A model generated the notes under the pieces. It did no database searches and was not told the origin of the DNA. It saw only the letters and a program-made list of their open reading frames with translations. Below are positions 20,471 to 45,505 of a DNA stretch of 64,000 nucleotides, one piece after another. The DNA is from Nodosilinea sp. FACHB-141 (GTDB taxonomy: Bacteria > Cyanobacteriota > Cyanobacteriia > Phormidesmidales > Phormidesmidaceae): positions 1 through 64,000 of the forward strand of contig NZ_JACJPP010000010.1 in NCBI RefSeq assembly GCF_014696135.1, in the 5' to 3' direction. Positions within the stretch are counted from its first letter, which is position 1; each line of letters starts with the position of its first letter. Both the position numbers and the translations under genes were made by a program.

Positions 20471-20645
20471 GGGAGTGGGGAGTGGGAGGGTAGGGGGTAG
20501 CGGGTAGGCGGGTAGGGAGTGGATGGGTGGATGAGTGGATGGGTAGGGAGTGGGGGAGTAGGGGAGTGCAGGAGTAGGGGAGTGCACTTGGGCGATAAAT
20601 CAGTTCATCCACCCATCCACCCTCCTACCCATCCACTCTCCCACC
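20462..20645. repeat. G-rich minisatellite in ssuC-ssuB spacer
   Basis: Tandem degenerate copies of GGATGGGTAGGGAGTGGGGGAGTA-like units on the plus strand, then a C-rich inverted counterpart (CATCCACCCATCCACCC) at 20600-20640. On the minus strand the reading frame through it yields [11 protein letters not shown]-like peptide, which explains an apparent N-terminal extension of SsuB. Confidence 0.85.
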
Positions 20646-20648
20646 CCT

Positions 20649-21458: not shown

Positions 21459-21520
21459 GGTTCAAGCGTTGTCAGAGTATGAGTAACAACCGGGGCCGGA
21501 AAATGCGGTGTTTATACCCA

Positions 21521-23961: not shown

Positions 23962-24026
23962 GGGCTTTGGCCTGCTAAATCCTGCTGAGTCTTATAAACC
24001 TAAGGTCTGGCGAAATCTGCGCAGCT

Positions 24027-25232
24027 CTAGCCGTAAAAATCGGGGGTGGGTAGCTCTCGGTTGAGCGCCCAGTTGCCCACCGCGCGAATTTTGTAGTCGA
24101 CTGGGTCGTGCAGGGTGAAGGTGCGGAGGTTGCGCCAGTAGCGGTCAAAGCCGTAGTCGGCAGAGGTGGCGCGGGTGCCCATGACATCAAAAATTTTGTT
24201 GACCAGGGCCAGGCCGTTTTGAGTGACAAAGGCTTTGGCGGTGGCAATGGCCACGGCGCATTCGCCCCGCTCTTCGGCGGTGAGGGCATAGCCCTTTTCC
24301 CAGGCGGCCTGCACTAACGCGGTGGCGCGATCGGTAAGCAGGGTGGCGGCTTCGAGGGCGATCGCCATTTCGCCGTAGTGTTGCAGAATGTAGGGATCTT
24401 CGGTGGCCGATTCGACCTTAGACCCCGGCCAGGCCCGCGTCTGGCTGCGGGTATAGGATCGCGCCGCCTCAAAGGCCCCCTGGGCCACCCCCAGATAGAT
24501 GTTGGTGAAGGTGATTTGGGTGAGGCAGGAGCGAAAGGTGCGAAACACCTCATTGCCTGCGGGAGGAGCCAAGATTTCATCGGCGGCCACCCACACATTG
24601 CTAAAGCGAATGTTGCCGCTGTCGGTTTGCCGCTGGCCCATGTTGTTCCAGTCGCCCTGCACCTCAACGCCCTCGCGCTGGGTGGGCACGATCGCAATCC
24701 GAAAGCCCTCTACACCCTCCTGCACCGTGCTGAGCGGAATCACATCGGAATCGACGGAGCCGGAGCAAAAGCTCTTGGTGCCGTTGATGCGAAAGCCCGC
24801 TCCATCGGGAGTGAGAATGACTCGGCGATCGAGCGGGTTGAAGCCGTTGCACCAAAACCAGTTGTGCTGGGCGGTTTGGCTATAGTAGTGAGCCGCCTGC
24901 TCGGGGTTGCCAAACACCTGGGGTGCTACTACCCCCAAATGCTGGTATGAAAACAGGTGGGCAATAGAGCTATCCACCTGGGCAAAGCGGCGGGTAATAC
25001 GCATAGCTGTTTCCCAATCTGCCCCGAGGCCGCCATACTGGGCTGGGATCACCAGCTTCAGCAGATTGCTCTGGCGCAGGCGATCGCGCTCTGCCTGGGC
25101 CGTGCCCCCCTGGCGATCGCGCTCCACCGCCGTGGCGGCAAATTCATCGACCAGGGTATCAACCCAGGCATCGATAGCTTGCGCGTTAGCGTGAACTTGG
25201 GACTGAAGCGGAGGCGAGGTGAGCAGCGGCAT
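24027..25232 (-). CDS. SfnB/DszC-like flavin monooxygenase (copy 1)
   Basis: A 401-residue protein of the acyl-CoA dehydrogenase fold in the SfnB/DszC branch, in which flavin is used for monooxygenation rather than acyl-CoA oxidation. Diagnostic segments are VIPAQYGGLGADWETAMR, the flavin-binding GFRINGTKSFCSGS, WNNMGQRQTDSGNIRFSNVWV, and the C-terminal FDRYWRNLRTFTLHDPVDYK. It lies directly between SsuE (FMN reductase) and the DszA-like enzyme, the same trio of functions as a two-component desulfurisation pathway. Unlike copy 2 it keeps several Met and Cys residues. The substrate is unknown. Confidence 0.88.
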   Translation of the reverse strand: MPLLTSPPLQSQVHANAQAIDAWVDTLVDEFAATAVERDRQGGTAQAERDRLRQSNLLKLVIPAQYGGLGADWETAMRITRRFAQVDSSIAHLFSYQHLGVVAPQVFGNPEQAAHYYSQTAQHNWFWCNGFNPLDRRVILTPDGAGFRINGTKSFCSGSVDSDVIPLSTVQEGVEGFRIAIVPTQREGVEVQGDWNNMGQRQTDSGNIRFSNVWVAADEILAPPAGNEVFRTFRSCLTQITFTNIYLGVAQGAFEAARSYTRSQTRAWPGSKVESATEDPYILQHYGEMAIALEAATLLTDRATALVQAAWEKGYALTAEERGECAVAIATAKAFVTQNGLALVNKIFDVMGTRATSADYGFDRYWRNLRTFTLHDPVDYKIRAVGNWALNRELPTPDFYG

Positions 25233-25275
25233 AGGTAAAGATGTTGAACAATAAACTTAATGTATGGCCATTGGC

Positions 25276-25824
25276 CTAGACGGCCGTGAGCACGGCGGGG
25301 AGCGATCGCACCAATCCCTCTAGCGAACTCCGCAGGCGCGCTTCCAAATCGGGGTCGTGAAACTCAATGCCGCCCGTCTCTAGCCGCTGAAATTGCGTAT
25401 CGACTAGATACACGCCCTGGAGAATGTGGGTAGCGCCGAGCACCCCCAGCACCGGGTTGAGGGCGTAGTCGATCGCCAGCAAATGCGCCAAAGTTCCTCC
25501 AGTGGCGATCGGCAAAACCGGCTTGCCCACCAGCACCTTTTGAGGCAGCAGGTCGAGAAAGGCTTTGAGAATGCCGGTGTAAGCCGCTTTGTAAACGGGG
25601 GTAGAAATAATCACCGCATCGGCGGCAGCAACCTGGGCCGATGCCGCACTGATCGCCGTACTGTCAAACCTGGCGTGGAGCAAATCTTCGGCGGGCAGAT
25701 CGCGCACCAGCAGAATCTCTAGCTCAACCCCCTGGGTTTTCAAAATTTTCTGCGCCTCTTCCAGCACCGCGTAGGAGCGGGAGGGATGGGAGGGGCTACC
25801 GGCGATCGCAACAACTTTTGTCAT
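25276..25824 (-). CDS. ssuE: NADPH-dependent FMN reductase SsuE
   Basis: A 182-residue flavodoxin-fold FMN reductase that supplies FMNH2 to SsuD-type monooxygenases. It matches E. coli SsuE closely along its length: AGSPSHPSRS phosphate loop, PAEDLLHARFDS, ADAVIISTPVYKAAYTGILK, LDLLPQKVLVGKPVLP and ATGGTLAHLLAIDYAL. It has no methionine apart from the initiator and no cysteine at all. It lies 43 bases upstream of the SfnB-like gene, in the middle of the monooxygenase block; the other FMNH2 users in the run (SsuD and the DszA-like enzyme) are presumably also its clients. Confidence 0.95.
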   Translation of the reverse strand: MTKVVAIAGSPSHPSRSYAVLEEAQKILKTQGVELEILLVRDLPAEDLLHARFDSTAISAASAQVAAADAVIISTPVYKAAYTGILKAFLDLLPQKVLVGKPVLPIATGGTLAHLLAIDYALNPVLGVLGATHILQGVYLVDTQFQRLETGGIEFHDPDLEARLRSSLEGLVRSLPAVLTAV

Positions 25825-25906
25825 ACCTAAACCTCAAAAAAATTTGGACAATGAACGCTAACTTTCGGCTGTTTCCATCCCCCCACCCCCTACCCCTCTA
25901 CCAACT

Positions 25907-26656
25907 TCACAGCTCCACCAAATCCAGCTCTGGCGTCAGATCGAGATCACCAATCAGCTGCTCCTTTAACCGCTGAAACTCGAGACTGGTGCGGCGACGG
26001 GGGCGGGGCAAATCCACCACCAGCTCGCGGTGAATGCGGCCTGGGTGCGGCCGCAGCACGATGATGCGATCGCTCAGCACCAGCGCCTCCTCAACATCGT
26101 GGGTGACCAGCAGCAGAGTGGGATGGTCTTCAGCCCAAATATCCAGCAGGTGGTCTTGCAGCTGGGTGCGGGTAAAGGCATCGAGGGCGCTGAAGGGCTC
26201 ATCGAGCAGCAGCAGGTTGGGCTGGGTGACCAGGGCGCGGGCGATCGCCACCCGCTGCGCCATCCCTCCCGAAAGCTGTCGCGGCAGGGCCTCGGCAAAA
26301 TTGGTTAGATGTACTTTCTGCAACACCTGCGCGGTGCGCCACTGTTGCTCTAGCCGGGGCAAATCTTTGAGGCCAAACTGAATATTCTCGGCCACCGTCA
26401 GCCAGGGCATCAGCCGAGCCTCTTGAAAAATCAGCCCCACCTTTGGGTGCGGAGCGGTAATGACCTCCCCGTCGATCAACGCCGCCCCCAGGGTGGGAAA
26501 ATCTAGCCCCGCAACAATACGCAGCAGCGTGCTCTTGCCGCACCCACTGGTGCCCACCAGGCTGACCACTTCCCCCGGTTTGATCGCCAGATCAATGCCC
26601 TCTAGGGCCAGTAGGCCGTTGTCGAATTGCTTGTGGACGTTCTCGATGTAAAGCAT
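25907..26656 (-). CDS. ssuB: sulfonate ABC transporter ATPase (set 2)
   Basis: A 249-residue ATPase with Walker A GTSGCGKST (35-43), signature LSGGM (128-132), Walker B LLLLDEPFSALDAFT and H-loop THDVEEALVLSDR. It follows the set-2 permease and has no binding-protein gene next to it, so it probably works with one of the distant SsuA-type lipoproteins of the run. The start ATG at 26656 lies just below a repeat-filled spacer. Confidence 0.92.
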   Translation of the reverse strand: MLYIENVHKQFDNGLLALEGIDLAIKPGEVVSLVGTSGCGKSTLLRIVAGLDFPTLGAALIDGEVITAPHPKVGLIFQEARLMPWLTVAENIQFGLKDLPRLEQQWRTAQVLQKVHLTNFAEALPRQLSGGMAQRVAIARALVTQPNLLLLDEPFSALDAFTRTQLQDHLLDIWAEDHPTLLLVTHDVEEALVLSDRIIVLRPHPGRIHRELVVDLPRPRRRTSLEFQRLKEQLIGDLDLTPELDLVEL

Positions 26657-26733
26657 GGGCGAGGGTGGAGAGGGTGGATGGGTAGGGGGTGGATGGGTGG
26701 GAGGGTGATGGGGTAAGGCTGTAGGGGTTTAAG
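26655..26733. repeat. G-rich minisatellite in the set-2 spacer
   Basis: GGAGAGGGTGGATGGGTAGGGGGTGGATGGGTGGGAGGGTGATGG-type degenerate repetition, continuous with the 21-bp AT-rich tandem repeat that follows. Confidence 0.8.
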
Positions 26734-26796
26734 TTTTGAATTAGGAACTTTGAGTTTTGAGTTAGGAACTTTGAGTTTTGAGTTAGGAACTAAAAA
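26734..26796. repeat. 21-bp tandem repeat, three copies
   Basis: Three consecutive 21-base units beginning TTTTGAATTAGGAAC, TTTTGAGTTAGGAAC and TTTTGAGTTAGGAAC. The first two end ACTTTGAG; the third diverges at its end. The unit is followed by a further AT-rich run (ACTTAAAATTCAAAACTT) up to the stop codon of the permease gene. Confidence 0.9.
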
Positions 26797-26816
26797 CTTA
26801 AAATTCAAAACTTTTG

Positions 26817-27623
26817 TCATCCTCTTGCTCCATAGGAGTCCTGCCAGTACAGCAGGCGCTGACTGATCGCCGACAGTCCTGAATCGGTGAGTTTTCCTAG
26901 CAGCGCAAACAGCACAATGCTGGCGATGATCACGGCGGGACGGCCGGTGGTTTGGCCGTCGATCAGCAGGTAGCCCAGTCCCTGGCTGGCTCCCATGAGT
27001 TCGGCGGCGACCACAAACATCCAGCCCAGCCCTAAACCATTGCGGAGCCCGACTAAGTAAGCTGGCAGCGTAGCGGGGAGGAATACCCGGCGCACGAGCT
27101 GGAGCTGGCTGAGGCGATAGATTTTGCCGACCTCTACCAACTTGCGATCGACTCCCTGAATGCCGCTCATCAGGTTGAGGTAAACCGGGAAGAACACCCC
27201 CACCGCAATCAGCGTCACCTTCGAGCTTTCATAAATGCCCAGCCAGAGAATAAACAGCGGCACCCAGGCGATCGAGGGGATGTTGCGCAGGGCCTGCAAC
27301 AGCGGGTCTAAATAGGCATGGGCCGTGCGGGAGTAGCCCGTCAGTGCCCCCAGCACCGTCGCCACCAGGGTGCCAATGCCAAACCCGAGCACGACTCGGT
27401 AAAGGGTAATGCCCACGTGACGCAACAGCTCGCCGCTGCGGGCCATCGTCAAAATGGTCTGCAACACCGTCGTGGGGGCAGGCAGCAGATTGGGGGCTAC
27501 TAGCCCGAGCCGAGAGAGCAGTTCCCAAGCGACTACCAGTGCGATCGGCAGTAGCCAGCCCTGGAGAGAGCGAGGAATGGCGAGGCGCTGTTTGGTCGGG
27601 CGACGGAGGGAGAGGGAGGACAT
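26817..27623 (-). CDS. ssuC: sulfonate ABC transporter permease (set 2)
   Basis: A 268-residue permease with six or so transmembrane helices. EAA loop: ATLPAYLVGLRNGLGLGWMF, followed by VVAAELMGASQGLGYLLIDG, characteristic of SsuC-type importers. It pairs with the ATPase gene 160 bases downstream. The N-terminal LRRPTKQRLAIPRSL is cytoplasmic and basic. Confidence 0.92.
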   Translation of the reverse strand: MSSLSLRRPTKQRLAIPRSLQGWLLPIALVVAWELLSRLGLVAPNLLPAPTTVLQTILTMARSGELLRHVGITLYRVVLGFGIGTLVATVLGALTGYSRTAHAYLDPLLQALRNIPSIAWVPLFILWLGIYESSKVTLIAVGVFFPVYLNLMSGIQGVDRKLVEVGKIYRLSQLQLVRRVFLPATLPAYLVGLRNGLGLGWMFVVAAELMGASQGLGYLLIDGQTTGRPAVIIASIVLFALLGKLTDSGLSAISQRLLYWQDSYGARG

Positions 27624-27624
27624 T

Positions 27625-27752
27625 GGAGTGGATAGTGGAGGGTGAGGGGTGGATGGGTAGGGGGTAAGGGGTGGATGGTAGGGGGGTGAGGGTAGAGGGT
27701 GAAGCAGATTTCACTACTCATCCACTCCCTGCTCATCTACTCATCTACCCCC
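27625..27752. repeat. G-rich minisatellite between set-2 permease and tauB-like gene
   Basis: GGTGGATGGGTAGGGGGTAAGGGG-type units on the plus strand up to about 27705, then CATCCACTCCCTGCTCATCTACTCATCTACC, a C-rich counterpart. The two halves can pair. Confidence 0.8.
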
Positions 27753-28588
27753 TACCCTCCTTCCACCGAGTGAATCGCCGACACGAGTCGCTGCCGTAGG
27801 CGGATAAACTCCGGCATGGTGCGCAAGTCGCTAATGCTCATGGATTTGAGCACGTCGCGGAAGGGGTTGGAAATTTGCTGGACGATACGGCCGGGGTGAG
27901 CATGCATTACGACGATGCGGGTGGCCAAAATCATGGCTTCTTCGACATCGTGGGTGATGAAAAAGATGGTTTTTTGAGTCTGCTGCCAGATTTTGTGCAG
28001 GTGCATCTGCATCAATTCGCGGGTGAGGGCGTCGAGGGCACCGAAGGGCTCATCCATAAGCACAACTCGGGGAGTAGCGGCTAGGGTGCGGGCGATCGCG
28101 GCTCGCTGCTGCATACCTCCAGAGAGCTGATGGGGCAGACGCTGGCTGGCCTCGGTGAGTCCCACCAAGTCAAGATAGTATGCAACTCGCTGTCTGAGAG
28201 TGAAGTCGGGTTCGCCCTGCATTTTAGGGCCAAAGCCCACGTTGTCGGCAATGGAGAGCCAGGGCAGCAGGTTGGGTCGCTGAAACACAACTCCCACTTC
28301 GGCAGTGGGGGCGCTGTGAGATTTGCCGCCAATATAAACCGCCCCGGCAGTGGGGGGCTGATAGCCCGCCAGCACCCGCAGCAGCGAAGTTTTGCCGCAG
28401 CCCGATGACCCCAGCACGCAGACAAAATCCCCGGCAATGAGGTCGAGGTTAATGTTTTGCAGGGCCTCGACCCGCTGAGCCCCATGACCAAAATGCAGGT
28501 TAATATCCCGTAGGGCCACGACGACATCTTGAGACAAAGACGGGCTTTGAGTAGTAACTGGGCTGGTGGTGCGGCTAGAAAACGCCAT
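27752..28588 (-). CDS. tauB: taurine-type ABC transporter ATPase TauB-like
   Basis: A 278-residue ATPase with Walker A GSSGCGKTS (60-68), signature LSGGM (155-159), DEPFGALDALT Walker B region and FITHDVEEAM H-loop. The stretch GVVFQRPNLLPWLSIADNVGFG and the [13 protein letters not shown] region resemble TauB. It starts 11 bases after the TauA-like gene, so the two are one transcriptional unit. The N-terminus carries about 22 extra polar residues before the nucleotide-binding fold. Confidence 0.9.
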   Translation of the reverse strand: MAFSSRTTSPVTTQSPSLSQDVVVALRDINLHFGHGAQRVEALQNINLDLIAGDFVCVLGSSGCGKTSLLRVLAGYQPPTAGAVYIGGKSHSAPTAEVGVVFQRPNLLPWLSIADNVGFGPKMQGEPDFTLRQRVAYYLDLVGLTEASQRLPHQLSGGMQQRAAIARTLAATPRVVLMDEPFGALDALTRELMQMHLHKIWQQTQKTIFFITHDVEEAMILATRIVVMHAHPGRIVQQISNPFRDVLKSMSISDLRTMPEFIRLRQRLVSAIHSVEGG

Positions 28589-28599
28589 GGTTGGTTGCC

Positions 28600-29664
28600 T
28601 TAAGACTTGAGGGTGTCGTTGCGCAGGTGTTGCTGAAAGGTAGTGATATCGGCGGCCCGATCAATCGCTTTTTGCTTCACCAAAAATTCGGCAGAATCTT
28701 TCAGCACATCGGCAAAGTCACCAGGCTGGTCGGGAGTGCCCAAAAACTTCGCGTCAGCCTGCTCTGCGGAAGTGAGCCAGATGATGCCCTTAGAGCTGGC
28801 CAGCGATTCTTCTGGCGTCAAACCCAACTCTTTGGCTAGGGCCTCAGCCGCTTCATCAGGGTTGGCGCGATAAAACTCCACCGCTTCATCCAGCACGGCG
28901 ATGTACTGGCGCAGCGCATCGGTATGGTTTTGGGCAAAGTCTTTGTGCACTAGGCCCACGTCGGCGGTGAGTACGCCGCGATCGGCCAAATCTGCAGAGG
29001 TCGTAAGAATCTGGCCGCCATCGCTGACCAGTCGGGTGAGGTGAGGCTCCCACACGTAGGCGGCATCAATATCGCCCCGCTGCCAAGCAGCCACCAAATC
29101 CTGGGGCTGCAGGTCGAGCAGCGTGAGACTGGCTGAGTCAACGCCGTCTTGCCCCAGCAGAGCCAGCAGGCTGAAGTGGGTGGTAGAGCCAAAGGGTACC
29201 GCCACCTTCTTGCCCGCCAAATCCTTTGTGCTGGCGATGCCGTCGCGCACCGCTAGCGCCTCGGCATCGCCGATCACGTCGTGAATGAAATACACCTCAT
29301 AGGGCAACCCCTGGGAAATGCCGACGGCCACAGGCACCGACCCCGCCAGCCCAAAATCAATGCCGTTAGCGGCAAAGGCGGTGTTGACATCCCGCCCCGA
29401 GTCAAAGCTGGAGTACTGAACCTTGCTGTTGGGAAAGGCTTTTTCGGTCAAGCCCAGGGCCTTGGCTAACAGCTCAGCGTTGGGAATTACCTGGTAACCG
29501 ATGCGAATTGTTGCCGGAGCCGCGACGCCGGAGCTACCCTCAGCATTCGCCGAATCAGCGGCGCTATCAGTCGGAGTGGTAGTGGTGGGCGCGCAGCTTG
29601 CCGCAATCAGCGGCAGGCTGACACCGGCTAAGCCGTAGAGAAAATGGCGTCGTCTGAGGGGCAT
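28600..29664 (-). CDS. tauA: TauA-like taurine-binding lipoprotein
   Basis: A 354-residue periplasmic binding lipoprotein. Signal peptide with twin-arginine-like RRRHFLYG and lipobox LIAASC (Cys24). The mature part shows strong TauA features: IRIGYQVIPNAELLAKALG, GIDFGLAGSVPVAVG, KKVAVPFGSTTHFSLLALL and LVAAWQRGDIDAAYVWEPHL. There is no methionine after the initiator and no cysteine other than the lipobox one, in 354 residues. A TauC-like permease lies upstream and a TauB-like ATPase 11 bases downstream, so this is a complete taurine-type importer in C-A-B order. Confidence 0.93.
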   Translation of the reverse strand: MPLRRRHFLYGLAGVSLPLIAASCAPTTTTPTDSAADSANAEGSSGVAAPATIRIGYQVIPNAELLAKALGLTEKAFPNSKVQYSSFDSGRDVNTAFAANGIDFGLAGSVPVAVGISQGLPYEVYFIHDVIGDAEALAVRDGIASTKDLAGKKVAVPFGSTTHFSLLALLGQDGVDSASLTLLDLQPQDLVAAWQRGDIDAAYVWEPHLTRLVSDGGQILTTSADLADRGVLTADVGLVHKDFAQNHTDALRQYIAVLDEAVEFYRANPDEAAEALAKELGLTPEESLASSKGIIWLTSAEQADAKFLGTPDQPGDFADVLKDSAEFLVKQKAIDRAADITTFQQHLRNDTLKS

Positions 29665-29681
29665 GGCGTGTGTCCTTTTTG

Positions 29682-29812
29682 AGGGGTAGGGGGTGGATGG
29701 GTGGGAGAGTGAATGGGTGGGTGGATGGGTGAGGGGTAGGGGAGTAAATTCAAAACTTAAAATTCAAAATTCAAAACTTACTCCCTACCCATCTACCCCC
29801 ACTCCCCACCCC
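29682..29812. repeat. G-rich and AT-rich repeats in tauC-tauA spacer
   Basis: GGATGGGTGGGAGAGTGAATGGGTGGGTGGATGG-type minisatellite, then TTCAAAACTTAAAATTCAAAATTCAAAACTT, then a C-rich arm CCCTACCCATCTACCCCCAC. The arrangement G-rich, AT-rich, C-rich can fold into a long stem with an AT loop. Confidence 0.85.
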
Positions 29813-30637
29813 CTACTCCCTACCCACCCAGGTCAGGTGCGATCGCATCACCCAGCGCAGCAGCCAGTCCAACGCCACGGCGATGCCGCCCATGATGAAA
29901 ATGCCGACAAAGATGACATCGCTGCGCAGGAATTTGCTGGCGTCGAGCACCATCCAGCCGATGCCGGAGACGGCGGCGACCATTTCGGCGGCGACCAGGG
30001 TGGTGTAGGCAAAGCCGATCGCGGTGCGTAGCCCAGTGAATAGATCTGGCAGCACCGAGGGAAAGATCACATAGCGAAAGATTTGCCAGCGGTTGGCCCC
30101 CAAAGATTGGGAGCCGAGAATGCGATCGCGGGGCACCCGCTGCACCCCCGCCACCGCCGCAATAAATAGTGGTGCAAAGGCCGCTAAAAAGAGCAGAGCA
30201 ATCTTCGAGGCATTCTCAATGCCCAGCCAGATTACCAGCAGGGTGTAGTAGGCCAGGGGCGGCAGGGGGCGATAGAACTCGATCAGCGGCTCAACTACGG
30301 CTCGCAGTTTGTCAAAGGCTCCGCAGGCCATACCCAACGGCACCGCAATCAGCACCGCCAAAACCAGCGCTACCCCCAACCGATAGAGGCTTTCCCAAAT
30401 GTGAAAGAGCAGCGGCACGCCTTTGTAGCCATTCACCACAATGTCCACAAAGGCTTTCAACACTGCCTCTGGGGTCGGCAAAAATAACGGACTCACCCAG
30501 CCTGCGTGGCTCGCCACCCACCACAACCCCAGCACCGTTGCCACCGAGGCCAGAGAAATCCAGCCGTCACCAGCCAACCACCGCCGCCGAATGGGGCGGG
30601 CTGAGGTGATTGAGGTTGGGGAGGCGGGAGAAATCAT
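29813..30637 (-). CDS. tauC: taurine-type ABC transporter permease TauC-like
   Basis: A 274-residue permease with about six transmembrane helices. EAA loop VLPDLFTGLRTAIGFAYTT followed by LVAAEMVAAVSGIGWMVLDA and SDVIFVGIFIMGGIAVALDWLL resembles TauC more than SsuC. It is placed between two binding proteins: an SsuA-family lipoprotein upstream and the TauA-like one downstream. The C-terminal helix is followed by a short basic end. Confidence 0.9.
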   Translation of the reverse strand: MISPASPTSITSARPIRRRWLAGDGWISLASVATVLGLWWVASHAGWVSPLFLPTPEAVLKAFVDIVVNGYKGVPLLFHIWESLYRLGVALVLAVLIAVPLGMACGAFDKLRAVVEPLIEFYRPLPPLAYYTLLVIWLGIENASKIALLFLAAFAPLFIAAVAGVQRVPRDRILGSQSLGANRWQIFRYVIFPSVLPDLFTGLRTAIGFAYTTLVAAEMVAAVSGIGWMVLDASKFLRSDVIFVGIFIMGGIAVALDWLLRWVMRSHLTWVGRE

Positions 30638-30639
30638 TG

Positions 30640-30755
30640 GGGTGGGGGGTGGATGGGTCAGGGGGTGGGGGAGAGAAGTGTTGAGTGTTTAGTTTTGAGT
30701 GCTTAATTCAAGGCATAAACTCAAAACTCAAAATCCAAAACTTAAAACTTTCTTC
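30640..30755. repeat. G-rich and AT-rich repeats upstream of tauC-like gene
   Basis: A short G-rich block (GGGGTGGATGGGTCAGGGGG) followed by TTGAGTGTTTAGTTTTGAG and AAACTCAAAACTCAAAATCC-like AT-rich repeats that run to the stop codon of the next gene. Confidence 0.75.
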
Positions 30756-31838
30756 CTACCGGGCTGCGACTTTTTCGATAAATTGCGGATCGACTAGAGA
30801 ATCTACGACGGCGTTCACGTCGGTGTTAGCGGGCACTACACCGCTCTTTTTCAGCACGTCTCCGGCGGCGGCGATAGTGTCTTTGTGGACGGTGCCAATC
30901 ACGCTATTTGACAGGTCGGTGCGCTCAAGCTGTTTGGCGGCCACATTTTTCTCGAGCCCTGCTGCTTCGGCCAGAATCAATTCGAGTTCTGCCGGGTTTT
31001 CGAGGGACCACTGCCGGGCTTTTTCGTAGGCGGCTAGCACGCGCTCTACGTAGGCGGGGTGGGTGTTGGCAAACTCTTCTCGCACGTTGAGAAAGCCGTA
31101 GGTGTTGAGGTCGGGGTTGCGGAAGAAGAGTTTAGACCCCTGCTCTAGCTCGGTTTTGGCCATGTGGGGGTCAAGGCCAGCCCAGGCATCGACATCGCCG
31201 CGCTCTAGGGCTGTTCTGCCATCGGCGTGCTGCAGCTGCACGACTTCGAGATCGCTTTCAGAGAGCCCGACTTGGTCGAGGGCGCGCAGCAAGAAAATGT
31301 GGGGGTCGGTGCCCTTGGTGGCGGCGACCTTTTTGCCTTTCAGGTCTTCGACTTTGCTGATGCCGGTGTCGGGGCGGGTGACCAGGGCCGTCCACTCAGG
31401 TTTGGAGTAGATGTAGACCGACTTGATCGGGTTGCCGTTGGCTTTGCCCAGCAGAGCAGCGGCCCCGGCGGTAGAGCCAAAGTCAATGCTGCGGCTGTTG
31501 AGCAGTTCTAGGGCTTTGTTGCTGCCCTGGCTTTGCACCCATTCCACGTTGACGTTGTCTTTGGCCAGGTCTTCTTCTAGCCAGCCTTTGGCTTTGAGCA
31601 CTAGGCTAACGGGGTTGTAGTAGGCAAAATCGATTCGCACCGCGCTGGGCGCTGCGGCAGCGGTAGCCCCTGAACTAGTGGCGTTGCTGCTGGGAGAGGG
31701 TTGGGCGCAACCGTTCAGCACCGCTATGCAAAAGGCGGTAGTGATGGCTAACATGCCTCGCAGCCACTGCCGCCTACCCACCCGGCTGAGGGGACGAATC
31801 TGTAGGGGCGAAAATCGAAGACTACGGAAACGGAGCAT
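30756..31838 (-). CDS. sulfonate-family substrate-binding lipoprotein
   Basis: A 360-residue SsuA/TauA-superfamily lipoprotein. Long basic N-region, hydrophobic core and lipobox VLNGC (Cys44). Mature fold segments: VRIDFAYYNPVSLVLKAKG, SIDFGSTAGAAALLGKANG, EDLKGKKVAATKGTDPHIFL and DVDAWAGLDPHMAKTE. It has one Met and no Cys in the mature part apart from the lipid-carrying residue. It precedes the TauC-like permease by 118 bases and may be an alternative receptor for that importer. Ligand unknown (aliphatic sulfonate or sulfate ester). Confidence 0.87.
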   Translation of the reverse strand: MLRFRSLRFSPLQIRPLSRVGRRQWLRGMLAITTAFCIAVLNGCAQPSPSSNATSSGATAAAAPSAVRIDFAYYNPVSLVLKAKGWLEEDLAKDNVNVEWVQSQGSNKALELLNSRSIDFGSTAGAAALLGKANGNPIKSVYIYSKPEWTALVTRPDTGISKVEDLKGKKVAATKGTDPHIFLLRALDQVGLSESDLEVVQLQHADGRTALERGDVDAWAGLDPHMAKTELEQGSKLFFRNPDLNTYGFLNVREEFANTHPAYVERVLAAYEKARQWSLENPAELELILAEAAGLEKNVAAKQLERTDLSNSVIGTVHKDTIAAAGDVLKKSGVVPANTDVNAVVDSLVDPQFIEKVAAR

Positions 31839-31928
31839 TGCTATACCTACGCTGAGTCAAAAAGGAAAACGAATTAGAAAATGCCGAGGCTGAGAAATGA
31901 ATTCTCGGCAGTAGAGCTAGCGCTACCC

Positions 31929-32534
31929 CTAGCGGAAGAGTTGGTCGTACTCGGGGCCGACTTGCCAACCGAAGGCTTTGGTGAGTCGGTTAGAAAGGCC
32001 AAACTGGGCGGCAATTTCAGCGGCTTCGAGGATGGCGCGATCGCTCAATCCGACCGCCCTTAATGGCTCTAGCTCTGATGGATCTAGGTCGCGGGCGAGC
32101 TGACTGATTAGCACCGCAAAGTCAGCCAGGGCTTGCTCGCGCGGGGTCAGCTCCAGATTTTCGCGATTGGTCACCAGGTCATCGGCAAAGGCGGCATCGC
32201 CGGTCACTTCTCGCAGCGCCGCTTTGTGGGTGGTGACGCAAGATTGACAGTGGTTGGTGGCGGAAGAAACGACGGCAATAATTTCGCGCTCTTTGGCAGA
32301 GAGTTCGCCTTCGCCATACATCAGCTCGCGGTAGTAGTTGAACCACAGCCGCAGGTGCTCAGGAATCAGCGAAAACCCTTTGAAGTAGGGATGCACCAGG
32401 CCAAGCTTTTTCCGCTGATCGGCGAAGATGGCCTGAATATCGGCGGGCAAGCTGGCCTCATCAGGCACGTTCAGCCAGGAGGTGGGGTTAGCTGAGGACA
32501 GGGTTGGGGCGGGTGGAGTGAGGGATTGAGTCAT
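31929..32534 (-). CDS. AhpD-like (carboxymuconolactone decarboxylase family) protein
   Basis: A 201-residue all-helical protein of the CMD/AhpD superfamily. The redox motif is CQSCVTTH (Cys pair with the nearby His), preceded by LSAKEREIIAVVSSATNH as in peroxidase-related proteins. These two cysteines are the only ones. Such proteins recur in bacterial sulfonate and sulfur-starvation operons, presumably to deal with peroxide or sulfenate by-products of flavin monooxygenases (inference). It lies 24 bases below the second SfnB-like gene. Confidence 0.85.
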   Translation of the reverse strand: MTQSLTPPAPTLSSANPTSWLNVPDEASLPADIQAIFADQRKKLGLVHPYFKGFSLIPEHLRLWFNYYRELMYGEGELSAKEREIIAVVSSATNHCQSCVTTHKAALREVTGDAAFADDLVTNRENLELTPREQALADFAVLISQLARDLDPSELEPLRAVGLSDRAILEAAEIAAQFGLSNRLTKAFGWQVGPEYDQLFR

Positions 32535-32558
32535 GGGAAGTTTCCTGAATGGGTAGGG

Positions 32559-33743
32559 TTAGGAATATTGGGTGGGGGTGGGGTAGACGCCGTTGAGGAA
32601 CCAGTTGCCGGTGTCGCGCAGCTTGTAGTCGGCGGGGTCGTGGAGGGTGAAGGTGCGCAGGTCGCGCCAGTAGCGATCGAACCCGTATGCGGTGGCGGTG
32701 GCGCGGCTGCCGGTGACTTCAAAAATGCGATTGGCAATTTCTAGCCCTACTTTGCTGGCGAAGGCTTTGGCGGCTCCGACCCGCACCGCCACTTCTCCCC
32801 GCTCCTCGTGGGTGAGGGCATCGCCTTTGTCCCAGGCGGCCTGGACCAGTGGGGCCACGCTAGCGGCCAGTTGGTTGGCGGCCTCTAGTTGCACCCACAG
32901 ATCGCCGTAGTGGTGTAGCACGTAGGGGTCGAGGGTGATGCCGCTGACCCCAGAGGTGATCCAGGGTCGGCTTTTGGCTTGGGTATATTGGCGGGCGGCC
33001 TGGAGCGCGGCTTCGGCAATGCCCAGGTAGACGTGGGTTTTGCCAAGCTGGGCCACGGGGCCGGGCAGGGTGGCAAAGGCCCCTTCAGGATCGGGGGCGG
33101 GGCCATAGATTTCGTCGGGTGCCACCCACACGTTATTGAAGCTGAGGCTGTTGCTGGCGGTGCGGCGCTGGCCAACATTGTCCCAGTCGTCCTGGATGGT
33201 GACGCCCTCGCGATCGCTCGGAATTGCCAAAAACAAGGGCAGCTCAACGCCGTCTTGCACCGCCGAAAACACCCAGCGATCGGCGGCAGGAATGCCGGTA
33301 CCAAACCCCTTTTCGCCATTCAGCCGAAAGCCCTCGCCGTCGGGGGTAAGCTTGAGCCGCTCGTCGCGGGTGTTGATGGCGTTGCCCCAAAACCACTGGT
33401 GCTGGGCGGTGCCGCGATAGTCGCGCTCTTTTTGCGCCACGGTGCCGAGGGAATGGGCCAGGGTGACGAGGCCGATGTGGTTGACGTAGAGCTGGCCAAT
33501 GGAGCCATCGGCTTTAGCAAGTTCTTTGACCACCTGATATAGGGTGACTAAATCGGCTCCGGCCCCGCCGTATTCCTGGGGCACAACGAGGGACAACAGG
33601 CCGAGGTCTCGCAGGCGAGACACTTCTAACGTAGGGATGCCGGCGGTGCGATCGCGCTCCACCGCACTAGCCGCTAGCTCCTGAGCCAGGGTCGCAGCGG
33701 TGGCGAGAATGCTGGATTGGTCGAGACGTTCGAGGACGGGCAT
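32559..33743 (-). CDS. SfnB/DszC-like flavin monooxygenase (copy 2), sulfur-amino-acid free
   Basis: A 394-residue acyl-CoA-dehydrogenase-fold flavoprotein of the SfnB/DszC type, with VVPQEYGGAGADLVTLYQVV, the flavin loop EGFRLNGEKGFGTG, DDWDNVGQRRTASNSLSFNN and FDRYWRDLRTFTLHDPADYK. After the initiator it contains no methionine and no cysteine, in contrast to copy 1, which has eight. The frame continues upstream to 33860, but that part translates the 15-bp spacer repeat (PYPST repeats), so I start at the ATG at 33743. It lies between SsuD and the AhpD-like gene. Substrate unknown. Confidence 0.9.
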   Translation of the reverse strand: MPVLERLDQSSILATAATLAQELAASAVERDRTAGIPTLEVSRLRDLGLLSLVVPQEYGGAGADLVTLYQVVKELAKADGSIGQLYVNHIGLVTLAHSLGTVAQKERDYRGTAQHQWFWGNAINTRDERLKLTPDGEGFRLNGEKGFGTGIPAADRWVFSAVQDGVELPLFLAIPSDREGVTIQDDWDNVGQRRTASNSLSFNNVWVAPDEIYGPAPDPEGAFATLPGPVAQLGKTHVYLGIAEAALQAARQYTQAKSRPWITSGVSGITLDPYVLHHYGDLWVQLEAANQLAASVAPLVQAAWDKGDALTHEERGEVAVRVGAAKAFASKVGLEIANRIFEVTGSRATATAYGFDRYWRDLRTFTLHDPADYKLRDTGNWFLNGVYPTPTQYS

Positions 33744-33763
33744 GGGGGTGAGGGGGTAGGGGG

Positions 33764-33823
33764 TGGATGGGTAGGGAGTGGATGGGTAGGGAGTGGATGG
33801 GTAGGGGGTAGATGGGTAGGCGG
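33764..33823. repeat. 15-bp minisatellite, four copies
   Basis: Four tandem 15-base units: TGGATGGGTAGGGAG twice, TGGATGGGTAGGGGG, then TAGATGGGTAGGCGG. A C-rich counterpart (CATCCACCCGTCCACTCATC) follows at 33841-33860. Because 15 is a multiple of three it translates as repeated PYPST on the minus strand. Confidence 0.92.
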
Positions 33824-33871
33824 GTGCGCAAGCAACTAACTCATCCACCCGTCCACTCATCTACTCCCCAC

Positions 33872-35014
33872 CTAACTCGCTGGAGCAGGTACCTTATCGT
33901 TGGCCATAATCTCGCCAAGGGGGCTGACGTAGCGGCTGGGGGCTGCCGTGGGCAGGTTCTCCAGGGGCAGTTTGGGAAATACGAGTTCGGCGAAGCGGTA
34001 GGCTTCTTCGAGGTGGGGGTAGCCGGAGAAGATAAAGGTGTCGATGCCGAGGTTGATGTATTCCTGCATGCGTTGGGCGACGGTGTCGGGGTCGCCGACT
34101 AGGGCGGTGCCGGCGCCGCCGCGCACCAGGCCGACGCCGGCCCAGAGATTTGGGCTAATCTCGAGGCTGTCGCGGCGGCCGCCGTGGAGGGCGACCATGC
34201 GGCGCTGGCCTTCGGAGTCGGCGTGGGCTAGGGCCTTTTGAGCGGCGGCGATGGTGTCGTCATCTAGATAGCGAATCAGGTCGTTGGCGGCATCCCAGGC
34301 TTGGGAAGTGGTTTCGCGTACGATGACGTGAAGGCGAATGCCGAAGCGCAGGGTGCGCCCGTGGGCTTCAGCCAGCTGGCGCACTTCGGCAATCTTTTCG
34401 GCGACTTGGGCGGGGGGTTCGCCCCAGGTGAGGTACAGGTCTACGTGCTTGGCGGCAATTTCTTTTGCGATCGGCGAAGAACCGCCAAAATACAGTGGTG
34501 GGTAGGGGTCTTGCACGGGGGGAAACAGCAGCTTTGCGCCTTTCACTGTCAGGTGCTGGCCCTCAAAATCCACGACTTCCTGCTGCATGACGCCGCGCCA
34601 GACTTCGAGAAACTCGTCGGTGAGTTCGTAGCGCTGTTGCTTGTCGAGGTGCAAGCCGTCGCCTGCCAGCTCGTAGGGGTCGCCGCCAGTGACAACGTTG
34701 ACCAACAGTCGGCCATTGGAGATGCGATCGAAGGTCGCTGCCATGCGGGCCGCCATGCCGGGAGAAGAAATGCCGGGACGAATCGCCACTAGGAACTTCA
34801 TGCGCTTGGTGGCTGCGATCAATGAGGCGGCGGTGATCCAGGCGTCTTCGCAGGATTTGCCGGTGGGCAGCAGCGCCCCAGCGTAGCCCAGCTGATCGAT
34901 CGCACCCGCCAGCTGCCGTAGATAGTCGGCGGTGATGGCGCGCCCCCCTACAGCGGTGCCCAGATAGCGGCCGTCGCCGTGGGTCGGTATAAACCAGTGA
35001 ATGTCGAGGCTCAT
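33872..35014 (-). CDS. ssuD: FMNH2-dependent alkanesulfonate monooxygenase SsuD
   Basis: A 380-residue enzyme nearly collinear with E. coli SsuD (381 residues). It splits C1 and longer alkanesulfonates into aldehyde and sulfite using FMNH2 and O2. Conserved features: [14 protein letters not shown] at the start, TGKSCEDAW with the active-site-region Cys55 (Cys54 in the literature numbering), RLHVIVRE with the catalytic His and Arg, and the mobile loop [24 protein letters not shown]2 should come from the SsuE encoded downstream. It follows the two SsuA-type binding proteins in the run. Confidence 0.97.
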
Positions 35015-35136
35015 AGCAATGAAAAACGCAGAGAGAACAACGAAGAGAAAAGACGTAGGAGAGAGTCAGAAGCGCATGCGCAGCGTTAGAGCTGTATCGG
35101 CCCTACGTCAAGCTTGAGTGCCCTAGTGAGCATCAC

Positions 35137-36249: not shown

Positions 36250-36284
36250 GGGTGGGCTCAACTTTGGTGAATGGCAATGGGGAG

Positions 36285-40953: not shown

Positions 40954-41871
40954 TTAAAAAGCGACGGCCACCAGTCCGTTGTAGGCCGCAGAATCACCTT
41001 TGAGGGCGGTGCTATGGGCTCCGCTGGGGCTAACGGGCAGATCGCCAACGACGGTCACCCGCTGCACGCGGCGGGGGTAGTCACCGTAGTCTGCGATCGC
41101 ATAGTGCTGGGTGGCCCGGTTATCCCAAAAGGCCACGTCGCCCAGTCGCCATTGCCAGCGCACGGTGTTTTCAGGGCGAGTGACATAGCTTTGCAGGGTG
41201 CGTAGCAGATCCTCCGACTCGGTTTGGGAAAGCCCTTGAAAACGGCGCACAAAGCCACCGAGCACCAGGGCTCGCTCTCCCGATTCGGGGTGAATGCGCA
41301 CGACCGGGTGGCGAGTTTCAAACACCGTCGATTCAAACACCGCGCGGTTGTGCTTAAAAAAGTCAGACAGATTCACGGCCCCGGTGCTGTAGTCGTAGGC
41401 GTTGCTGTGGATCGCCCAGAGCTGGTCGGCCAGGGTCCGCAGCGGGGCAGGCAAATCTTGATAGGCGGTGACCGTATTGGCCCAAATGGTATCACCGCCC
41501 ACAGGCGGCAGCTCTACCGCCCGTAAAATTGAACCTAGGGGTGGGCGATCGACGAAGGTGACATCGGTGTGCCAGTAGTTGGCATAGAGATGGTTTTGAC
41601 CGTAGTGCAGGTCGAGCACCTCGGGGCGCTGCTCTAAGGGTGGCAGGGTCGGGTGGGCGGCGGTGAGGGGGCCAAACCGGCGGGCAAAGGCGATTTGACC
41701 CTCTGAGTCAAGCCGCTGCTGGTCGCGGAAGAAAATTACCTTGTGCTCTACGAGGGCCCGTCGCAGGGCTTGAATGGTGTCGTCACTGAGGGCATCGCTG
41801 AGGTCTAGGCCAAAAATTTCAGCGCCAATACGCCCGGCAACAGGACGCAGGTTGAGAGATACAAAGCTCAT
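40954..41871 (-). CDS. tauD: TauD/AtsK-family Fe(II)/2-oxoglutarate dioxygenase
   Basis: A 305-residue dioxygenase. The iron facial triad is His101, Asp103 (WHTDVTF) and His256 (QHYAIADYG), and Arg residues at 267-271 bind 2-oxoglutarate. The family hydroxylates carbon next to sulfonate (TauD, taurine to sulfite plus aminoacetaldehyde) or sulfate ester (AtsK). The segment LPAPLRTLADQLWAIHSNAY is closer to my memory of AtsK than of TauD, so alkyl sulfates are an alternative substrate. The protein contains no methionine except the initiator and no cysteine. It is divergent from the flavoprotein-persulfide dioxygenase fusion across a 162-base AT-rich promoter region. Confidence 0.92.
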   Translation of the reverse strand: MSFVSLNLRPVAGRIGAEIFGLDLSDALSDDTIQALRRALVEHKVIFFRDQQRLDSEGQIAFARRFGPLTAAHPTLPPLEQRPEVLDLHYGQNHLYANYWHTDVTFVDRPPLGSILRAVELPPVGGDTIWANTVTAYQDLPAPLRTLADQLWAIHSNAYDYSTGAVNLSDFFKHNRAVFESTVFETRHPVVRIHPESGERALVLGGFVRRFQGLSQTESEDLLRTLQSYVTRPENTVRWQWRLGDVAFWDNRATQHYAIADYGDYPRRVQRVTVVGDLPVSPSGAHSTALKGDSAAYNGLVAVAF

Positions 41872-42033: not shown

Positions 42034-44343
42034 ATGTCATTCTTCAATTCTCCCCCCGCGATCGCCATCATTGGGGCTGGCTTTAGCGGGTCTCTGGTAG
42101 CGACTCACCTACTCAAAACAGCCAACCGCCCCCTCGTTGTCAAACTGGTGGAGCGTCGTTCGGAGGTGGGCAAAGGGGTGGCCTACAGCACCACAACCAA
42201 CGGCCACCTGTTGAATGTTTCGGCAGGGAAGATAAGTGCTTTTCCCGATGAACCAGGCCATCTGCTGCGCTGGCTCAACTACAACCGCAGCGCCCTAACC
42301 GGCTTTTTGCCCAAAGATTTTGATGCCAGCACCTTTATTCCTCGACAGGTTTTTGGCCTCTATATCCAATCCATTTTAGAGGAGGCCGAGGCGTCGGCCC
42401 CCAGCACTGTGCGGCTAGAGCGGGTAGAAGACGAGGCGGTGGCGATCGCGCCCCAGGGCCAGGGGGCGGTGGTGTCGTTAGCCAGCGGGCAGAGTTTTGC
42501 CGCTGACCGGCTGGTGCTGGCGCTGGGAAATGCCCCGGCGGGGGTCGAAACCGACAGCGATCGCCCCTACCTCCGCCACGCCTGGGCAGCGAATGCCCTC
42601 GATGACCTGGCCCCCGATGCGCCGGTGCTGCTGGTGGGCACCGGGCTAACCATGGTGGATATGGTGGTGTCGCTGCACAGCCGCCGCCACCGTGGCCCCA
42701 TCTATGCGCTGTCTCGGCGCGGGCTAGCCCCGTTGCCGCACCAATCGACTTTGCCCTACCCAGCCTTTTTGACCCCAGACATCGCTCCGACTACCCTGCG
42801 CGGCCTGACCCAGCGGCTGCGGCGCGAGGTTGAAACAGCCAAGGCTTACGGCTACGACTGGCGAGCAGTGATCGACTCGCTGCGCCCCATCACTCAGGAG
42901 CTTTGGCAGCGACTCCCCCGCCCTGAGCAGCGACGTTTTTTGCGCCACCTTAACCCCTACTGGGATGTGCACCGCCACCGGATTGCGCCAACGATTGGCG
43001 AGATGCTCAAAGCCTTGCAGCAATCTGGGCAGTTGACGATCGCCGCTGGGCGCATTCTGGGTTACCAAGCCATCCCTGACGGCGTGGCCGTTACCTTTCG
43101 TTGTCGTGGATCTCAATTGGAGGAGACGCTCCAGGTGAGCCGCGTGGTCAACTGCACAGGGGTGCAGGCCGACTACCGGCGATCGCTCCAGCCCCTAATC
43201 ACCAGTCTGCGTCAGCAGCAGCTCATTCGCCCCTGCGATCTGGGCCAGGGCATTGATACCGCCGCTGACGGGGCCGTGCTCGATGCCCAGGGTCGCCGTT
43301 CTGCCCTGCTCTATACGTTGGGCACCCCTCGCAAGGGCCAGCTTTGGGAATCTATCGCCGTGCCAGAGCTGCGGGAGCAGGCCCAACGGCTCGCTTCGAC
43401 GGTGCTGCAATCGCTGCCGGTGCGGGTGCGCCCGCTGCCCACTCGGGTCTACGCCACTTCCCAGCGCGTGGCCTTTGCCCAAGACTGCGGCGAACCTGCC
43501 CCTGTACTGCCTCAGTCCACCCTGGTGTTTCGCCAGTTGTTTGACCCGGAGTCAAGCACCTACACCTATCTAATCGCTGATAGCCAAACCCAGGAGGCTG
43601 CCCTGGTCGATGCTGTGCTTGAGCGGAGCGATCGCGACCTGCAACTTCTGCAAGACCTGGGTCTGACCCTGCGCTACTGCCTCGAAACTCACATTCACGC
43701 CGACCATATCACTGGCGCGGGCAAGCTCAGGCAGCAGACCGGTTGCCAAGTGTTAGTACCCCAAAACGCTGCCCGCTCCGCCGACCACAATCTGGCCGAT
43801 GGTGAAATACTCACTTTGGGGACAGTGCGACTGGAGGCGATCGCCACCCCAGGGCACACCAGTAGTCATATGGCCTACCTAATCAATAACACCCACTTAC
43901 TCACAGGCGATGCCCTGCTGATTCGCGGCTGTGGCCGCACTGACCTGCAATCTGGCGATGCCGGCACCCTGTATGACACTGTAACTCAGCGGTTTTTTAC
44001 CCTGCCTGACACCACCCTGGTCTACCCCGCCCACGATTACCAGGGCCGCACAGTTTCTACCATTGGCGAAGAGAGGCGGCTGAATCCTCGGTTTACCGAT
44101 GGTCAAGGGCCGGGTTCGGGCTATCGCACCCGCGACCAATTCATCACCTTGATGGCCCACCTGGGTCTGAGTTATCCCAAAAAGATCAATCAGGCTGTGC
44201 CTGCCAACGAACACTGCGGCGATTTCATTCCTCCCAGCGATCTAGACGCTAACCCAAATAGTCAGGCAGAGCGCGACCAGACGGAGCAAAACCTGACCAC
44301 CAATGCCGAAATTTTTGAGGGTTACTTCGCTATGTATATTTGA
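42034..44343 (+). CDS. FAD/NAD(P)-binding protein fused to persulfide-dioxygenase-like metallo-hydrolase
   Basis: A 769-residue fusion. Residues about 1-480 are an FAD-NAD(P)-binding domain (GAGFSG at 14-19, KGVAYSTTTNGHLLNVSAG, second nucleotide motif GTGLTMVD at 202-209, VVNCTGVQADYRR). Residues about 495-740 are a metallo-beta-lactamase fold of the ETHE1/persulfide dioxygenase type: HIHADH (553-558), PGHTSSH (606-612), GDALLIRGCGRTDLQSGDAG with Asp626, and YPAHDYQGRTVSTIGEERRL with His667. Such dioxygenases oxidise glutathione persulfide to sulfite. The flavin half is not a rhodanese or SQR that I recognise; it may generate or reduce a sulfur substrate. It is divergent from tauD and upstream of the sulfur-poor cpcBA pair. 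Confidence 0.9.
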   Translation: MSFFNSPPAIAIIGAGFSGSLVATHLLKTANRPLVVKLVERRSEVGKGVAYSTTTNGHLLNVSAGKISAFPDEPGHLLRWLNYNRSALTGFLPKDFDASTFIPRQVFGLYIQSILEEAEASAPSTVRLERVEDEAVAIAPQGQGAVVSLASGQSFAADRLVLALGNAPAGVETDSDRPYLRHAWAANALDDLAPDAPVLLVGTGLTMVDMVVSLHSRRHRGPIYALSRRGLAPLPHQSTLPYPAFLTPDIAPTTLRGLTQRLRREVETAKAYGYDWRAVIDSLRPITQELWQRLPRPEQRRFLRHLNPYWDVHRHRIAPTIGEMLKALQQSGQLTIAAGRILGYQAIPDGVAVTFRCRGSQLEETLQVSRVVNCTGVQADYRRSLQPLITSLRQQQLIRPCDLGQGIDTAADGAVLDAQGRRSALLYTLGTPRKGQLWESIAVPELREQAQRLASTVLQSLPVRVRPLPTRVYATSQRVAFAQDCGEPAPVLPQSTLVFRQLFDPESSTYTYLIADSQTQEAALVDAVLERSDRDLQLLQDLGLTLRYCLETHIHADHITGAGKLRQQTGCQVLVPQNAARSADHNLADGEILTLGTVRLEAIATPGHTSSHMAYLINNTHLLTGDALLIRGCGRTDLQSGDAGTLYDTVTQRFFTLPDTTLVYPAHDYQGRTVSTIGEERRLNPRFTDGQGPGSGYRTRDQFITLMAHLGLSYPKKINQAVPANEHCGDFIPPSDLDANPNSQAERDQTEQNLTTNAEIFEGYFAMYI

Positions 44344-45335: not shown

Positions 45336-45505
45336 TGCTTTACCCAGCAAAAGTGACAGGTTACGGGCCAGGTTTAGGTACAAAGCGTGAGGCATGCCAT
45401 GAGCCTTAATCTTTTACACCTTTTGCTCCAGGGGCTCAAATCTAGCTTGCCACGATCAAATTCTGTTTTACCCCTTCACTTATTTACGTTTGAGGTAATT
45501 TTTCC

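Follow-up and report, generated by a model that had tools for sequence, protein, structure and literature searches.

Persulfide dioxygenases (PDOs) of type I, such as human ETHE1 (4CHL), the Myxococcus enzyme MxPDO (4YSB; PMC6060420) and AcPDO of Acidithiobacillus caldus, are described in passages of PMC6060420 and PMC9774590 as proteins that either stand alone or carry a rhodanese domain. In the PDO-rhodanese fusions, represented by BpPRF (5VE3), which the title of a paper cited in PMC6060420 ties to sulfur assimilation, and by the type III enzyme CstB, the rhodanese partner lies at the C terminus. The gene analysed here, at positions 42034..44343 on the forward strand of a 64,000-nucleotide stretch of Nodosilinea sp. 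FACHB-141 (contig NZ_JACJPP010000010.1, positions 1 to 64,000; this whole stretch is referred to as the window), resembles these fusions in that a PDO is joined to a second, putatively sulfur-handling domain, but its partner is a flavoprotein and is placed at the N terminus, in front of the dioxygenase. The original prediction for this locus, which was made from the sequence alone, had assumed that known PDOs are either stand-alone or rhodanese-fused, in agreement with the sources above. The closest relative of the flavin half with a solved structure is FzmM/CreE (8CP2, 8CP5), a class B L-aspartate N-hydroxylase acting through a C4a-hydroperoxyflavin (PMC10404684). Each half of the protein belongs to a known enzyme class, and we found no description of the pairing: a search of the open-access literature, outside which most subscription papers lie, returned no report of a flavin-monooxygenase partner of a PDO, and none that assigns a function to this PF13454 branch.

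A persulfide dioxygenase behind a flavin module

Analysis of the open reading frames (ORFs) of the window gives a single frame of 769 residues with an ATG start and no internal stop, in which Pfam places NAD_binding_9 (PF13454) at residues 11-166 (2.6e-40) and Lactamase_B at residues 507-667 (3.2e-16). Together with a sequence search of the PDB, this describes a fused gene for a FAD/NAD(P) monooxygenase-like module followed by a type I PDO. Combining these searches with alignments of relatives, we divide it, all on the forward strand, into the PF13454 flavin module (residues 1-470, 42034..43443), a linker whose length varies among relatives (residues 471-495, 43444..43518), the ETHE1-type PDO (residues 496-735, 43519..44238) and a C-terminal tail ending in YFAMYI (residues 736-769, 44239..44340). 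Two types of fusion can be distinguished by this tail: type A, to which the window gene belongs, has ORFs of 757-781 aa that include it, and type B has ORFs of 709-768 aa that lack it (the tail is seen in 8/8 type A and 0/6 type B rows aligned). The gene is present at 93% and in the same frame in the nearest named relative, Nodosilinea sp. FACHB-131 (L003), and a comparison with this relative yields dN/dS values of 0.15 for the flavin half, 0.07 for the dioxygenase half and 0.31 for the tail. The fused frame is therefore not a product of chance, and both halves are under purifying selection; the single 769-residue fusion that had been proposed is thus borne out by the intact ORF, the Pfam domains and the selection acting on them. 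No rhodanese family matches the window protein in Pfam at E 0.001, and in NCBIfam only the Blh model does, which matches best within the PDO half. A model of the full-length protein, built from 8 alignment rows, is too poor to place the two active sites (pLDDT 53.4, pTM 0.34).

All 26 matches in a single-sequence search of the PDB fall in the C-terminal half, the best being MxPDO (4ysb, 1.5e-70) and human ETHE1 (4chl, 1.4e-65). The iron ligands of human ETHE1, His79, His135 and Asp154 (PMC4383860), align by HMMER with H553, H608 and D626, each of which is kept in 84/84 aligned domains, so that the complete ETHE1-type metal site of the original prediction is indeed present. The THxHADH motif occurs as THIHADH at residues 552-558, and H555, D557, H558 and H667 are also noted in the domain. 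The equivalents of R163, Y197 and R214 in the glutathione site are R635, Y669 and R686, again in 84/84 domains (residue roles from PMC6060420 and PMC4383860); R163 and Y197 are shared in this site by all three PDO types (PMC6060420). Less uniform is the equivalent of C247, a residue reported to be essential in human ETHE1: it is C728 in the window and is kept in 67/84 rows and in 41/57 fused rows, the rest nearly all being aligned as Gly, and cut-off alignment ends may explain some of the rows that lack it. Judged by its sequence, the C-terminal half belongs to type I PDO.

Stand-alone cyanobacterial relatives of this half are common among the 386 genomes of the phylum that were searched. A sulfite-exporter-type gene, TauE/SafE, is found at 5/12 of the stand-alone PDO loci for which larger stretches were retrieved, and at four of the five (L149, L150, L151 and L154, all of one family) it immediately follows the PDO gene; in L038, L072, L073 and L075, too, TauE is close to the PDO gene. 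Since TauE/SafE adjoins these genes, sulfite fits as the product of the stand-alone PDOs. TauE gave no match in the window or in the fused loci included in that search.

The flavin module and its closest relatives

The flavin half carries a GxGxxG motif at residues 14-19, Y51, N61, a second Rossmann motif (GTGLT, residues 202-206) and S227-R228, followed by a stretch rich in Arg and His at about residues 230-330 (H236, W276, R277, R284, W291, R301, R304, H305, R314 and R316). The two dinucleotide-binding motifs that had been read from the sequence are thus found as G14xG16xxG19 and G202xG204, and these glycines are kept, within one chain, in 84-87 of 87 modules. A profile built from 11 diverse modules retrieves FzmM from the PDB (8cp2/8cp5) at 1.3e-20, with the next best match at 3.6e-07. 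The same relative is found by fold. Using a model of residues 1-480 (pLDDT 59.4, pTM 0.55), Foldseek returns FzmM at ranks 1-3 (5.5e-19), followed by 14 rows of ornithine, lysine or diamine N-hydroxylases, among which we count SsDesB. With this model, whose pLDDT is only 59.4, VIA Z is 24.0 for FzmM (rmsd 6.0, 339 aligned), 20.1 for PvdA and about 19.3-19.5 for further N-hydroxylases; bacillithiol disulfide reductase, at 18.9, comes below them. A weak similarity to NCBIfam PRK09897 extends over residues 10-214 (29.9 bits against a cut-off of 783). This family presumably comprises uncharacterised FAD-NAD(P)-binding proteins of the YdhS/COG4529 type.

FzmM/CreE is homologous to residues 8-442 of the flavin half, with the middle part of the alignment uncertain (the hhalign comparison used two Streptomyces relatives of FzmM). 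The likeness consists of the catalytic Asn and the stacking aromatic residue. The catalytic Asn62 of FzmM corresponds to N61, which is kept in 87/87 modules, and the pairing is the same in HMMER, in hhalign and in three MAFFT runs, while the flavin-stacking Trp51 corresponds to Tyr51, a Tyr in 84/87 modules. In all three MAFFT runs R266, which contacts sulfate in FzmM, falls on H236 (His in 84/87). The aspartate-site residues in the helical domain of FzmM comprise Arg276, Arg409, Arg412, Asn413 and Arg416. For this domain the hhalign runs disagree, and in MAFFT Arg409 is placed on R314, with Arg412, Asn413 and Arg416 in a gap. What sets the flavin half apart from FzmM/CreE are the smaller number of residues between the nucleotide domains, the replacement of an arginine that contacts aspartate, Arg13, by Ser, and the sulfur contexts described below. 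Overall, the module looks like an oxygen-activating class B monooxygenase.

The original prediction had offered a different hypothesis for the flavin half, namely that it makes or delivers a persulfide or thiol substrate. Formulated as an alternative, it would be a reductase or a sulfide-oxidase-like enzyme that generates or delivers the persulfide for the dioxygenase half, as sulfide:quinone oxidoreductase (SQR) feeds PDO, a cooperation that is established (PMC9774590). The fold is broadly common to flavin disulfide reductases, which reach VIA Z values of about 17-19, and in type B relatives a further cysteine follows C374 at a distance of five residues (column 379, Cys in 28/87 rows). The window protein, however, has only one frequent cysteine column in this half, C374 (Cys in 77/87 modules): it lacks a cysteine at column 379 and at column 57 (Cys in 33/87), and no redox-active pair was found in it. 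Without a conserved cysteine pair in the flavin half of the window, there is no support for a persulfide-making or disulfide-reducing enzyme, and the SQR or disulfide-reductase identity was rejected on this ground. Moreover, both profile and fold give as the closest solved relative an oxygen-activating monooxygenase, and the nearest relatives are monooxygenases with the catalytic Asn. The second Rossmann motif is invariant in the module, whereas to our knowledge SQR has no NAD(P) site. We consider this proposal unlikely, and a persulfide supply from the flavin half is not supported.

Another way to read the homology is that the flavin half, like FzmM/CreE, N-hydroxylates an amino acid without sulfur, and that the fusion is biosynthetic. 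The best homology is to an L-aspartate N-hydroxylase, and Streptomyces has a CreE-like gene that adjoins a pcaB-like lyase gene. The aspartate contacts of FzmM give a divided answer. Arg577 falls on R447 (Arg in 80/87 modules) in the global hhalign and in one MAFFT run, that is, in two of five alignments, lying outside the local hhalign alignment and in a gap in the other two MAFFT runs. Arg13, on the other hand, corresponds in every alignment to Ser18, a position occupied by 79 Ser, 6 Thr and 1 Ala in the 87 modules. The substrate of the module may be amino-acid-like, but with Arg13 replaced by Ser aspartate is probably not that substrate, and a plain aspartate N-hydroxylase identity was rejected for this reason. 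The sulfur contexts and the thiol dioxygenase partners of the module also speak against a non-sulfur amino acid, and we give this reading a low probability.

Partners, distribution and history of the module

Among relatives, the flavin module is found in four arrangements: fused to ETHE1, next to a separate ETHE1 gene, fused behind a cupin resembling cysteine dioxygenase (CDO), and directly after a separate CDO gene. At 5/15 loci that were first classed as lone flavin modules (L160-L164, of which L161 and L162 belong to one genus), a separate ETHE1 gene adjoins on the same strand, with the flavin gene first. These five loci, in which separate FAD and ETHE1 genes keep the order of the fusion, support the functional link between the halves that had been anticipated.

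CDO (CDO_I, PF05995), which has a cupin fold unrelated to PDO and is not part of the window protein, partners the flavin module in other members of the phylum, either fused or directly upstream. In four genomes of the window's phylum, though of another class, CDO_I is fused N-terminally to the module (G096 36.2, G106 37.8, G321 39.3 and G367 39.0 bits, cut-off 23), and an H-x-H and a third His are visible in the sequences; these CDO-like cupin and flavin module fusions are located at L054:9023-10969, L059:9411-11321, L028:997-2901 and L031:1355-3223. A CDO gene lies directly upstream at 3/13 lone loci from the lone-module search (L183, L189 and L190). In the larger stretch around L183 (L055:14160-16225) the CDO gene (60 bits in Pfam) and the lone flavin gene are 2 bases apart, and relatives of ssuB, ssuC and ssuD lie beside the pair on the other strand. 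In three genomes (G671, G675 and G680) a lone module occurs in addition to a fused one, and the two forms are therefore probably not redundant.

A search for the domain architecture in other genomes, as suggested with the original prediction, finds that the fusion recurs in several cyanobacterial families. Both halves are matched in 11/386 genomes of the phylum, including the window's own, one of them with a stop inside the match. Within the genus, 4/26 genomes contain the whole fusion, one more has the halves separated by 4.1 kb, and another has a partial copy. In the family of G125, which is most likely Nostocaceae, the flavin half is matched in 88/217 genomes, and in 75/217 the match lies in an open frame of at least 700 residues (counted by hand). 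When a lone module was used as query against 388 genomes of the class, 14/27 loci were fused, in families f1, f5, f7, f13, f15 and f26. The two halves share one frame at 26/27 type A loci, the other being split (L168), and at 26/28 type B loci, where L056 is split and L052 frame-broken. In L168:5402-12047 (G388, a Nodosilinea relative) about 4.1 kb separate the two halves, which share a strand and give the impression of an interrupted gene. Among plasmid records, 2/1269 matching records cover 80% of the query, both from Nostoc; the absence of the fusion outside cyanobacteria rests on these plasmid records and one narrow pattern scan only. Two observations stand apart from these counts. In a Nodosilinea metagenome-assembled genome (L004:7140-9449) the gene is broken into separate frames with stops in all three, by decay or assembly error, and a Streptomyces protein of 893 aa (L064:9962-12643) has the flavin module at its N terminus, followed by a long C-terminal part that matches nothing in Pfam at E 0.001.

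Before the trees were computed, identical rows and rows containing more than 3 X were removed, and types A and B were subsampled at random; for the flavin tree, the non-cyanobacterial rows were subsampled as well. In the flavin tree, types A and B form one clade (support 99/97) with the lone module L051 inside it, a position best explained by loss of the dioxygenase half. This module (L051:11995-13383), which is closest to type A and has no dioxygenase half, lies in a large ssu cluster beside relatives of ssuA and ssuE.

The variable linker, the occurrence of each half alone in many genomes, and the relative L051 with its missing PDO half are what one would expect if the halves were joined for co-expression only, such that a PDO releasing sulfite and an unrelated flavin reaction share control by sulfur starvation but no substrate. 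Under such an arrangement it is hard to explain why two unrelated oxygenases of reduced sulfur should each accompany the module both as a fusion and as a gene pair, and we judge mere co-expression to be improbable. Weakest of all is the idea that the metallo-beta-lactamase half is a glyoxalase II-like hydrolase instead of a dioxygenase, which we consider very improbable and rejected, since, even if the glyoxalase II model GSH_gloB gives the best partial NCBIfam score (114.3 bits, cut-off 200.8), the PDB matches to PDOs are far stronger (1.5e-70 for 4ysb against 4.4e-17 for 1qh3) and the equivalents of R163, Y197 and R214 are kept.

Sulfur context and proposed function

As had been stated, the fused gene is divergent from tauD, a TauD/TfdA dioxygenase gene at 40954..41871 on the minus strand (Pfam TauD, 1.1e-63). 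Further upstream, positions 19715-37361 on the minus strand constitute a sulfonate/organosulfur cluster, which includes genes for an SsuD-like alkanesulfonate monooxygenase (33872..35014, 71% to the annotated ssuD of L008) and two SsuA-like sulfonate-binding proteins (35137-36261 and 36285-37361). For the rest of the cluster (19715..33860, minus strand) several of the names are our assumption from resemblance: it presumably contains SsuB/SsuC/SsuA sets, a luciferase-type monooxygenase (22582-23961), two SfnB-like proteins of acyl-CoA-dehydrogenase fold (24027-25232 and 32559-33860), an SsuE-like protein (25276-25824) and a CMD/AhpD-like protein (31929-32534). Between the cluster and tauD lie genes named by resemblance as a class II glutamine amidotransferase and RecQ, and the fused gene is followed at 44814-45997 by two genes that we take, again from resemblance, to be phycobiliprotein-like.

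Similar surroundings are found elsewhere. On a Nostoc plasmid (L008) the fused gene comes directly after ssuA, ssuD, ssuC and an ATP-binding gene. Leaving aside the window, the frame-broken L004, the duplicates L126 and L128, and L053, any sulfonate-type gene is present in the fetched stretch at 7/27 type A and 10/28 type B loci, compared with 0/12 for stand-alone ETHE1; for the lone flavin modules as first classed, with the five gene pairs among them, the count is 4/15. In L053 itself the fusion is truncated, and tauD-like and luciferase-type genes are found in its vicinity. SsuA-type genes taken alone lie in the stretch at 10/35 fused loci in 33 genomes, an excess over the 0.72 expected from the gene counts per genome. 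Outside cyanobacteria, sulfur genes accompany the lone module at 8/14 annotated loci (L010, L011, L171, L172, L173, L174, L175 and L178), these 14 having been chosen by hand from the matches, and none were seen at the annotated loci L009, L062, L063, L064, L176 and L177; L061, which has no annotation, was left uncounted. Part of the module loci are thus sulfonate or sulfur-assimilation clusters, also in proteobacteria.

On balance, we lean towards reading the window protein as a bifunctional, O2-dependent sulfur-scavenging enzyme, in which a PDO and a flavin monooxygenase that depends on NAD(P)H would work on a common sulfur pathway. It is the architecture, the conserved catalytic residues, the selection, the recurrence, the two unrelated thiol or persulfide dioxygenase partners and the sulfur neighbourhoods at part of the loci that we observe, and the monooxygenase activity, its substrate and the order of the steps that we infer. 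The C-terminal half would convert a low-molecular-weight persulfide, most likely glutathione persulfide, to thiol and sulfite. The N-terminal half would function as a single-component class B flavin monooxygenase, where NAD(P)H reduces FAD, the reduced FAD reacts with O2, and one oxygen atom is passed to a small anionic sulfur-containing substrate held by the Arg/His-rich insert. A human flavin-containing monooxygenase has been reported to oxidise hypotaurine, a sulfinate, to taurine. CDO yields cysteine sulfinate (PMC13194613), and the arginine site of FzmM binds sulfate, which inhibits that enzyme (PMC10404684). Cysteine sulfinate is also a look-alike of aspartate. It is because the CDO product, the sulfate binding of FzmM and the human enzyme all point there that a small anionic sulfur compound seems a plausible substrate.

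The relay that we prefer would have the iron dioxygenase put two oxygens on the terminal sulfur (R-SO2-) and the flavin module then either add the next or oxidise the carrier amino acid so that the sulfur leaves as sulfite, an order that would account for both partners, ETHE1 and CDO. The two oxygenases could also act in reverse order. The relay would end in sulfite either directly or via a sulfonate for TauD/SsuD, and the sulfite would enter assimilation together with that from the neighbouring SsuD and TauD.

Several observations weigh against this reading as a whole. The model of the N-terminal half is weak (pLDDT 59.4, pTM 0.55), and with it flavin reductase folds (YpdA, thioredoxin reductase) reach VIA Z values of 17-19. 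The paired frames in L162 and L164 overlap by tens of bases, so that these two could be frame-broken fusions. Neither CDO nor ETHE1 was found within about 1.5 kb, the flanks being short, at 10/13 lone modules, nor at 16 lone-module loci outside cyanobacteria (15 plasmid records and one viral contig). The ETHE1 tree does not join the two types of fusion: A is a clade, and interspersed with B are three stand-alone domains and one from a gene pair. No sulfonate gene occurs in the stretch at 20/27 type A and 18/28 type B loci. The loci behind the SsuA excess are related, all ten cases coming from five genera, and a tail probability for this excess is therefore not to be taken literally. The stand-alone ETHE1 control (0/12) is weak, as only 0.03 would be expected for SsuA and 3/6 of the host genomes included in the count lack any SsuA match.

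If the sulfur-scavenging reading is nevertheless extended to the family as a whole, one could tentatively speculate that the modules are an undescribed family of sulfur-oxygenating class B monooxygenases, which work in relay with an iron thiol dioxygenase (ETHE1- or CDO-type) that supplies a sulfinate-level product, and have been joined to unrelated dioxygenases at least twice, at opposite ends of the chain. They might then constitute a dedicated route for sulfur under starvation in cyanobacteria, and the lone module might have a comparable role in proteobacteria. The proposal offers a testable function for a large family that is labelled in databases only as 'FAD/NAD(P)-binding protein'. If true, combining a flavin oxygenase with a non-haem iron oxygenase in a single chain that serves one sulfur pathway would be unusual as a catalytic pairing. 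That the module also pairs with another sulfur-oxidising enzyme, unrelated to the first, points to an uncharacterised route in which sulfur is extracted in two steps under sulfate scarcity. The proposal also suggests how sulfate-limited cyanobacteria and soil bacteria may gain sulfur from thiols and persulfides besides sulfonates.

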